Positions 13,417 to 31,139 of a DNA stretch of 64,000 bases are shown piece by piece. Both the position numbers and the translations under genes were made by a program. Numbering within the stretch: the stretch's first letter is position 1; each line of letters opens with the position of its first letter. The notes under the pieces are model-generated. The model was not told where the DNA came from and ran no database searches. It saw nothing but the letters and a program-made list of their open reading frames with translations. Source of the stretch: Pseudomonas mediterranea CFBP 5447 (GTDB taxonomy: Bacteria > Pseudomonadota > Gammaproteobacteria > Pseudomonadales > Pseudomonadaceae); NCBI RefSeq assembly GCF_000774145.1, contig NZ_KN322986.1, positions 62,001 through 126,000 of the forward strand. Direction: 5' to 3'.

Positions 13417-13539
13417 AAAGAAAACCCCGCCGAAGCGGGGCTTTGCAGACTGTTTCCCTGATATCCCTTTCACTCCACCATCCTGGTGGAATCCTACGTG
13501 TCCGTGTTGTTTCTCTGCGCATCCTGCGCGACGTCCATG
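13417..13539 (-). ncRNA. rsmY: Rsm small RNA (RsmY-like), Gac-controlled
   Basis: The minus strand encodes a transcript of about 120 nt with eight GGA motifs, several in hairpin loops: GCGCAGGATGCGC, CACGGACACG, CCACCAGGATGGTGG. It ends in a strong terminator, CCCCGC-TTCG-GCGGGG plus TTTTCTTTT. Such RNAs titrate the translational repressors RsmA/RsmE. A TAATCT -10 element lies at 13551-13546 and a perfect GacA box about 66 bp upstream of the predicted start. Transcript ends are estimated to a few bases. I prefer RsmY to RsmX or RsmZ because of the GCGCAGGA-type first hairpin and because, from memory, rsmY lies a little beyond this acyl-CoA dehydrogenase cluster in P. aeruginosa. The exact paralogue is less certain than the family. 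Confidence 0.88.
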
Positions 13540-29878: not shown

Positions 29879-29920
29879 TAAGGCCCCATCGCGAGCAGGC
29901 TCGCTTGTATGGTAGGACTT

Positions 29921-30070
29921 GAAGGGAGGAGGAGGGACAAGGCTCGATTCTGACTGTTAGCCGCAGTACAGACCGTGGGAGATATCACCCCTCCTCCTTT
30001 CACCCAAGCGCCGATAAAGAATGCATCTGGCCTAGACCGACGATAGGAACAAGCCTGCGCCTCTGGGTGA
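29921..30070 (+). ncRNA. Predicted bridge RNA (target- and donor-binding loops)
   Basis: This leader of the IS110 element folds by eye into two large stem-internal-loop structures. Loop 1: stem 29924-29936 with 29989-30001, inner hairpin 29949-29972. Its left strand AGGCTCG (29940-29946) equals the target left of the core, and its right strand GTGGGAG (29975-29981) is the complement of CTCCCAC at the target. Loop 2: stem 30001-30011 with 30057-30069. Its AGAAT (30018-30022) equals the right end of the element before the core, and its ACAAG (30049-30053) is the complement of CTTGT at the left end. This is the published layout of IS110 bridge RNAs. Exact transcript ends are not known. Confidence 0.85.
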
Positions 30071-30109
30071 CCCCTTCAAGTGTTCAAACCTTAGCCCGGA
30101 GGACTTTCA

Positions 30110-31057
30110 ATGGCAATGCCCGTCGCCATCACCCAGTCGATCGTAGGTGTCGATGTCGCCAAGGACGAGTTGGTGATTTATCACGCCGAATCTGATCGAC
30201 TCGAAACGATCCCCAACACTAAAGCTGCGATCAAGAAGTGGCTCAAGGCATTGCCCGCGCCAGTGGATGTTGCCATCGAAGCCACCAATATCTATCACCA
30301 GGAATTCGTCAATCTGGCTTATGCGCAAGGCTGTGTGATCTATGTGATCGACGGTTACGAGCTCAGTCATTACCGCAAAGGTGTGAAGATTCGCGCTAAA
30401 ACTGATGCGCTGGATGCTCGATTGCTGGCTCGCTACTTGAGCAACGAAGGCCACCTTCTGCACCCATGGACTCCACCATCGCCGCTGTATTGCCGGCTTA
30501 TAAGCCTTTTCCGACGCCGGGCAGCTTTGGTTCAAGCACGTGTCAGCCTCAAGCAAAGCTGGGCGAACGAACCGTTGCTCAAAACGGCGTTCGAGAACCA
30601 GATAGCTGCAATGCAGAGACTGGAAACCTTGATCGACAAAACAATCCAGACGCAGTTGGAACAAGCCGGTTTGGCTCATCAGCTCAAGCGCTGCATGAAA
30701 GTCGAAGGCATCGGCTTGTTGAGTGGTGCCCGTTTAATCACGTCGTTTCAGCGTGGGGACTTCAGAAATGCCGATGCTTTCATCGCTTTTCTGGGCTTGG
30801 ACTTGCGAATAGCGGACTCGGGGAAAAAGAAGGGGCGCCGTTGCTTGTCTAAACGAGGTGATCCAGAGGCGCGTCGTTTGCTGCACAACGCCGCAATGTC
30901 GGCGAGCCGCACCGCGGCGTGGAGGGGATTTTATGAGGCCCTAAGGGCTCGAGGACTTAGCACAACCCAAGCACTGGTGGCACTGGCCCGCAAACTGGCG
31001 CGAGTGGTATTCGCTCTGTTGAAGAACCAGAGCGAATACCTACCAAAATGCATCTAG
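30110..31057 (+). CDS. IS110-family transposase (DEDD/serine recombinase)
   Basis: This 315-residue protein is a complete IS110 recombinase. The N-terminal RuvC-like DEDD domain has Asp15 (GVDVAKDELV), Glu57 (AIEATNIYHQEF) and Asp99/Asp102 (KTDALDARLLARY). The C-terminal Tnp domain carries the predicted catalytic Ser247 in CLSKRGDPEARRLL. All catalytic residues are present and there is no frameshift, so the element is probably active or recently active. A ribosome binding site, CGGAGGA, precedes the ATG at 30110. Codon use and GC content are somewhat lower than in the neighbours, consistent with transfer. The enzyme should act with the bridge RNA encoded just upstream. Confidence 0.95.
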   Translation: MAMPVAITQSIVGVDVAKDELVIYHAESDRLETIPNTKAAIKKWLKALPAPVDVAIEATNIYHQEFVNLAYAQGCVIYVIDGYELSHYRKGVKIRAKTDALDARLLARYLSNEGHLLHPWTPPSPLYCRLISLFRRRAALVQARVSLKQSWANEPLLKTAFENQIAAMQRLETLIDKTIQTQLEQAGLAHQLKRCMKVEGIGLLSGARLITSFQRGDFRNADAFIAFLGLDLRIADSGKKKGRRCLSKRGDPEARRLLHNAAMSASRTAAWRGFYEALRARGLSTTQALVALARKLARVVFALLKNQSEYLPKCI

Positions 31058-31114
31058 GGGGCTAGTCCTGCACCATAGAATCTCCCACAAGGATCAGCAA
31101 CATTGAAGATCCAA

Positions 31115-31139
31115 TGTGGGAGCGAGCCTGCTCGCGATG
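31115..31139. repeat. REP unit, partner of the IS-interrupted REP
   Basis: GTGGGAGCGAGCCTGCTCGC at this point is the second member of a REP pair. The first member (29888-29905 continued at 31082-31089) was split by the IS110 element. Confidence 0.9.

Follow-up and report, generated by a model that had tools for sequence, protein, structure and literature searches.

The 204-nt leader of an IS110-family element in Pseudomonas mediterranea CFBP 5447 very probably encodes a bridge RNA about 165 nt in length (approximately positions 29917 to 30081 of the window, the 64,000-nt stretch of DNA analyzed here), and the recombinase would use this RNA to join the circular element to a REP sequence at a CT dinucleotide. 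Observed directly are the ends of the element, the CT core, an empty site, a match between guides and target that co-varies among copies, a sharp footprint of seven, two, and five bases, and co-variation between the arms of the leader helices. Production of the RNA, its binding by the recombinase, and insertion driven by pairing would carry over from the work on IS621 described in PMC11208160.

An IS110 element interrupts a REP at a two-base core

The element lies on the forward strand at 29904 to 31081 (1,178 bp with one CT core counted) and consists of the leader, a transposase gene, and a 24-nt right end. The 315-aa transposase (30110 to 31057, forward strand) matches PF01548 (78.9 bits; cut-off, 29), PF02371 (61.1 bits; cut-off, 21.3), and NF033542, “IS110 family RNA-guided transposase” (187.4 bits; cut-off, 140), and its best solved-structure match by sequence is IS621 (E of 2.4e-21). 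Residues D15, E57, D99, D102, and S237 are invariant in eight aligned proteins, and the same residues are aligned in IS621. We take the four acidic residues and the C-terminal serine S237 to be the catalytic residues of IS110 transposases. With 204 nt of non-coding sequence 5′ of tnp and 24 nt 3′ of it, the element has the long left end and short right end of the IS110 subgroup. An IS1111 type was considered and rejected, as it needs a long non-coding region downstream of tnp, where only 24 nt are present here. Residues 137 to 284 of the transposase (30110 to 31054) show sub-threshold similarity to a TIGR-Tas nuclease model (32.6 bits; cut-off, 100), and a search of the plasmid collection found no relative of the transposase at E up to 1e-30.

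The left half of the interrupted REP (29888 to 29903, forward strand) ends in AGGCTCG at 29897 to 29903 and is followed by the left copy of the CT core (29904 to 29905); to the right of the element come the second CT (31082 to 31083) and the rest of the right half, together CTCCCACA (31082 to 31089, forward strand). The REP thus reads AGGCTCG-CT to the left of the element and CT-CCCACA to its right. In two relatives, G010 (GCAGGCTCGCTCCCACA) and G005, the orthologous site is intact and empty, and the empty site at L231 reads GCGAGCAGGCTCGCTCCCACA. Because the site is empty in both relatives, where the flank matches overlap by two bases, the scarless target and its two-base CT core are shown rather than assumed. 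Across the genus CT stands at both ends in 130 of 130 copies, a count to be read with the fact that CT is itself part of the end-finding motifs. Three copies with the same ends and identical leaders are present in the host genome (this one is on contig 29), all within REP sequence; the second copy has a degenerate left REP half, in which 5 of 7 positions match the guide.

A neighboring REP, inverted and intact, lies at 31116 to 31133 on the reverse strand. In the window as a whole, 21 REP-like matches were found where 0.22 were expected; they extend from 2417 to 49923 and mostly form inverted pairs with starts 37 to 70 bp apart.

The leader appears to form a target arm, a donor arm, and a closing helix

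The sequence-only reading had proposed that a target-binding loop in the leader spells out the insertion site, and its outer stem, inner hairpin, and both guide strings are all present exactly as it placed them, on the forward strand. The 5′ arm of the outer stem, GGAGGAGGG (29928 to 29936), pairs with the 3′ arm, CCCTCCTCC (29989 to 29997), as seen both in the fold and on arm swapping. Within this stem lie the left target guide, AGGCTCG (29940 to 29946), an inner hairpin (29949 to 29972) with arms TCTGACTG (29949 to 29956) and CAGTACAGA (29964 to 29972), and the right target guide, GTGGGAG (29975 to 29981). The hairpin is seen in the fold and in a UA/CG exchange at alignment columns 48/70. 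The left guide is an exact match to the REP strand left of the insertion point, as had been claimed. The right guide does complement CTCCCAC, whose copy on the right flank begins at 31082, but this stretch had been assigned to the right of the insertion point and in fact takes in the CT core and the five bases that follow it. AGGCTCG itself ends before the core, and the leader bases opposite the core (29947 to 29948) are AT, not CT. Among 200,000 dinucleotide-shuffled versions of the leader (29906 to 30109), AGGCTCG occurred in 2,519, GTGGGAG in 5,243, and both in order in 31; in the real leader the two guides additionally flank a hairpin.

The 81-nt segment from 29921 to 30001 folds as proposed (−36.7 kcal/mol; z of −3.46), with none of 200 shuffles as good. 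In the predicted fold of this segment, some left-guide bases are paired with the right guide, which counts against the model. The fold of the full leader stands out less (z of −1.76; equaled by 10 of 200 shuffles). Among 43 distinct leaders, the outer stem has at least seven pairs in all 43, the inner hairpin is present in 38, and z falls below −2 in 35; the hairpin fails in two leaders of G080 and in G216, G383, and G356. The covariance-model search that had been suggested as a check found no match at the leader in Rfam at E up to 1 over 29880 to 31120. At the gathering threshold, Rfam matched only RsmY across the window (13421 to 13538, reverse strand; 121.4 bits; gathering score, 57). No match falls at the element, so no curated covariance model applies.

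Outside the target arm, the 5′ arm of a P1 closing helix, ACTTGAAGGG (29917 to 29926, forward strand), pairs with its 3′ arm, CCCTTCAAGT (30072 to 30081, forward strand), a pairing also found in the full-leader fold. The intervening donor arm (30000 to 30070, forward strand) has a stem formed by 30000 to 30011 with 30057 to 30070 and a conserved internal loop. By analogy, AGAAT (30018 to 30022, forward strand), which equals the right end of the element before the core, is a putative left donor guide, and ACAAG (30049 to 30053, forward strand), the complement of CTTGT at the left end, a putative right one; these assignments are suggestive, each being a five-base match to an end located by fixed motifs. 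The leader thus appears to be a three-way structure of closing helix, target arm, and donor arm.

When 36 leaders were aligned with MAFFT/RNAalifold, the outer stems of the two clades did not line up correctly and two-sided changes were seen in only 5 of 28 pairs; we therefore tested the helices by swapping arms among 53 leaders. The three helices co-vary: own arms pair better than swapped arms in every case, with 0 of 10,000 permutations as good for each helix under a control that ignores kinship (42 distinct arm pairs for the closing helix, 36 for the target stem, and 32 for the donor stem). The leader of Halomonas urmiana was not parsed, and for Halomonas LBP4, Natronospira, and the Ectothiorhodospiraceae element the stretch used did not take in the expected closing helix. 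Between groups the closing helix changes on both sides, from GAAGGG/CCCTTC here to GTCGGGG/CCCCGAC in Stutzerimonas.

According to PMC11208160, an IS110 promoter is formed at the circle junction. In the joined circle, a possible −35 element, TAGTCC (31063 to 31068, forward strand; a weak consensus match, 3 of 6), would stand 17 bp from TATGGT (29908 to 29913). A consensus scan of 45 genomes gave summed −35 matches of 140 at this spacing, 88 at 16 bp, and 84 at 18 bp. This putative pair is weakly in keeping with such a junction promoter. In the mechanism that we propose, the element would be excised as a circle whose junction promoter transcribes the leader RNA, and the recombinase would bind that RNA. 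The target arm would pair with both REP strands around CT and the donor arm with the circle junction, and circle and REP DNA would then be recombined at CT.

Guides agree with targets over a sharp 14-bp footprint

We searched 398 genomes of the genus with the transposase (E up to 1e-20), found relatives in 72, and scored at most five places per genome. From among the matches listed, we took 132 copies from 46 of the 72 genomes, and both ends could be placed in 130 copies from 45 genomes. The two left out were L047, which lies at a contig end, and L035 (G091), whose left-end motif is out of range. The leader of L035 retains the target arm and has lost most of the donor arm, and it is apparently a dead or trans-dependent copy.

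Guides had been expected to co-vary with their flanks in other copies, and in these 130 copies they do. The left guide equals the target at −7 to −1 in 112, 103, 104, 114, 114, 114, and 122 copies, respectively, and agreement collapses one base further out (15 of 130 at −8, 14 of 130 at −9). On the right, agreement from +1 to +5 is found in 130, 126, 126, 130, and 130 copies and in only 12 at +6. These edges define a pairing footprint of seven bases, the CT core, and five bases (14 bp). After the core, the right target is C, pyrimidine, pyrimidine, A, and C in every copy. The left guide matches at all seven positions in 64 copies and at six in 44, and at least one mismatch is present in 66. 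The pattern that was to count against a guide, an unchanged guide at unrelated sites, is not the rule, with at least 5 of 7 positions matched in 122 of the 130 copies. (Guides of G383 and G128 are read one base shifted in the per-copy, within-host, and tree counts, and not in the genome-level test.)

At the genome level, guides match their own targets at 494 of 540 positions compared with 434.6 when shuffled, a value that none of 20,000 shuffles equaled under a null that ignores kinship. The same holds in the closer transposase clade (219 of 228 versus 200.6; 0 of 20,000) and in the farther one (275 of 312 versus 237.0; 0 of 20,000). The right guide changes with its target as well: G094 and G356 have A for G in the guide and T for C in the target at +3 in 5 of 5 copies, and T occurs at this target position in 4 of the 125 other copies (Fisher p of 4e-7, calculated on copies). 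At +3, a guide G faces a target T in four copies, and no copy has a guide A facing a target C; G080 has a non-wobble right mismatch at +2 in 3 of 3 copies. A wobble bias on the left side was considered and dropped, with 34 wobble and 31 non-wobble transitions among the mismatches at −7 to −1.

Several copies stand apart. The left guide matches at 4 of 7 positions or fewer in eight copies, including L021 (G186), where the right REP half is perfect and the left flank is non-REP, possibly through a later deletion or rearrangement. L101 to L103 (G080), at 1,371 bp, are larger by about 200 bp and have a long additional stretch at the right end; their left target is GCCGCC before CT, and the usual inner hairpin is absent from their predicted fold. 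L031 and L078 (G066) share an orientation, are separated by 1,352 bp, and have left flanks identical over 83 nt; although counted as two copies, they look like a single insertion that was duplicated in tandem together with its flank.

Guide and target change together on the transposase tree

We placed left guides and targets on a FastTree phylogeny of 55 transposases, representing the 45 genomes and ten of 80 named loci. These 55 units carry 22 distinct 7-base left guides, and 30 units match at 7 of 7 positions. Parsimony gave 29 concordant changes, in which guide and target took on the same base on one branch, 1 double change to different bases, 20 guide-only changes, and 24 target-only changes, whereas shuffled targets gave a mean of 2.6 concordant changes and a maximum of 9 in 500 under a null that ignores kinship. 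The 45 genus units alone gave 21 concordant changes, 2 discordant doubles, 16 guide-only changes, and 19 target-only changes, against a null mean of 2.3 and maximum of 11, again ignoring kinship. Ties were resolved by alphabet; reversing this on the genus-only tree gave 22 concordant changes rather than 21.

Nine loci among the matches listed lie outside the genus, six of them with a readable left flank. Matches at 7 of 7 positions were found for AGCCTGG and AGTTGCG in Halomonas, GAAGCCG in Natronospira, AAGTCCG in Stutzerimonas (L202), and GACGCCG in the Ectothiorhodospiraceae element (L210), while a second Stutzerimonas locus (L203) matches at 6 of 7, one base off. Halomonas LBP4 has one right-side mismatch. 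Exceptions among the named Pseudomonas loci are L206 of P. entomophila, with 4 of 7, and L204, whose site is not REP-like; in L174 of Pseudomonas lini the right core is TT rather than CT, though left guide and target match at 7 of 7.

Guides fit insertions better than host REPs at large

That the transposase protein itself recognizes REPs, with the leader matches reflecting shared ancestry or composition only, is a very improbable account of these data. In its favor, REPs are abundant in the host genome, where AGGCTCGCTCCYAC, the exact dialect of the insertion, has 1,201 sites compared with 52 for AAGCTCG and 19 for AAGCCCG; related elements may occupy related hosts with similar REPs; and target choice is treated as a property of the transposase by Tobes and Pareja (2006; PMC1525189). 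Against it, the agreement has sharp edges at −7 and +5, the guide bases vary while the neighboring hairpin is largely conserved, quite different 7-mers match in other genera, and the guide match exceeds that of random REPs of the same host.

This last point rests on site counts for five REP dialects, made separately for all 45 genomes. The within-host test covered 103 insertions, excluding 27 whose left flank falls outside the five dialects or whose host has none. Guide and insertion site agree at 657 of 721 positions, where REPs drawn at random from the same host would give 615.6 (z of 6.37; 0 of 20,000 as good). When each host is compared with its own expectation, 31 of 38 exceed it and 7 fall slightly short (sign test p of 1.2e-4; Wilcoxon p of 2.6e-7). 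The guide best fits the commonest counted dialect of the host in only 22 of 38 genomes, and for the 39 insertions in hosts whose commonest dialect is other than the one the guide fits best, the count is 237 versus 217.7 (0 of 20,000). Counting wobble as a match makes the within-host signal smaller but keeps it (681 versus 657.6; 0 of 20,000), with 6 of 20,000 as good for the same 39 insertions. In G252, 5 of 5 fetched insertions are in AAGCCCG (376 sites) although AAGCTCG is commoner (609), and in G254 both insertions are in AGGCTCG, a dialect with 55 of the 1,358 sites counted. There are counter-examples: the guide of G100 is AAGCTCG, yet both of its insertions are in AAGCCCG; insertions in G213 use three dialects and its guide fits none well; and the CAGTTCG guides of G066 and G213 fit the REPs of their own hosts poorly.

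The bridge-RNA reading had also been offered as the explanation of why the element sits in a REP. This stands for the class of site and not for which particular REP was entered, because the host holds so many sites of the exact dialect.

A mainly regulatory 5′-UTR, controlling translation by folding or through an antisense RNA with the guide match secondary, has a precedent in ISPpu9 of P. putida, which is described in PMC8450116 as having a foldable 244-nt 5′-UTR and higher transposase expression owing to a stable antisense RNA. Regulatory and guiding roles are not exclusive, but a regulatory role does not predict seven bases that change with the flank, and we regard this account as very unlikely. 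Capture of a REP piece by the leader through recombination, with no guiding role, is barely credible: left guide and left flank do share AGGCTCG in direct orientation, but this match is only 7 nt long, the right match is inverse and separated from the left one by a conserved hairpin, and the match has persisted through many guide changes.

Relation to known elements

The element is an IS110 bridge-RNA element of the already known REP-targeting kind. It is not a new kind, because REP insertion was described in 2006 and bridge RNAs, including a prediction for ISPpu10, have been described since. Durrant et al. (2024; PMC11208160) established IS110 bridge RNAs, with ISPpu10 among six predicted examples in Extended Data Fig. 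10c, and reported that guides and targets co-vary over 5,511 pairs and that some right guides are longer than that of IS621. As described there, IS621 shares with the present element a left-end RNA upstream of the recombinase with target loop before donor loop, a left guide that equals the top strand and a right guide complementary to it, a CT core, a REP target, ATA/TAT near the core, and a recombinase in the 300- to 460-aa class. Unlike the 11-bp IS621 target of that account, in which the right guide covers two non-core bases, the right guide here spans five bases past the core. A second difference concerns the left guide. The IS621 core is said in PMC11208160 to join every pairing, whereas here the core dinucleotide is not part of the left-guide pairing, the corresponding guide positions being mostly AT or CA (AT in 90, CA in 28, CT in 11, and AA in 1 of 130 copies); we count this against the model but do not treat this IS621 detail as family-defining.

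ISPpu9 and ISPpu10 of P. putida were described by Tobes and Pareja (PMC1525189) as inserted in REPs at one fixed point with a 2-bp repeat. Compared by description only, ISPpu10 resembles our element as an IS110 member at a fixed point of a Pseudomonas REP with a 2-bp repeat and, in PMC11208160, a bridge-RNA prediction that includes both target and donor guides. ISPpu9 of P. putida KT2440, likewise compared by description only, is an IS110-family, REP-inserted element with a 2-bp (AG) repeat, a long foldable 5′-UTR, and a small RNA from the leader region (PMC8450116); features of its own in that account are that the leader RNA is antisense and that a second small RNA lies downstream of tnp. The seekRNA of IS1111 types (ISPa11 and others; PMC11187229) also has segments for both target strands, and ISPa11 targets a Pseudomonas REP. 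In that description, however, the seekRNA is downstream of tnp, whereas our element has its long non-coding region upstream, as in IS110 types.

Probable re-aiming of guides in step with host REPs

We consider it rather probable that this REP-living IS110 lineage re-aims by point changes in the guide as the REP family of the host drifts, a case of repeated natural reprogramming. Sites of the common-dialect pattern ARGCYNGCTCCYAC number 2 in G018, 0 in G080, and 29 in G356, and the atypical guides that all three carry fit re-aiming in hosts nearly without common dialects; G004 (33 sites) adds nothing, with guide AAGCCCG and target AAGCCCC. Searches of open-access papers brought up, among the matches listed, none on IS110 guides that follow host REP dialects, which is not proof of absence, and natural re-aiming of this kind is possibly new.

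If re-aiming is true, an RNA-guided recombinase naturally tracks another repeat family. The present results carry the bridge-RNA rule over to numerous natural elements of Pseudomonas, whose left guides form a ready-made reprogramming series, and separate two questions that are usually mixed, namely, which REP dialect the host has and which dialect an element chooses within it. The longer right guide, with its 14-bp footprint including the core, could matter when IS110 recombinases are chosen for specificity.
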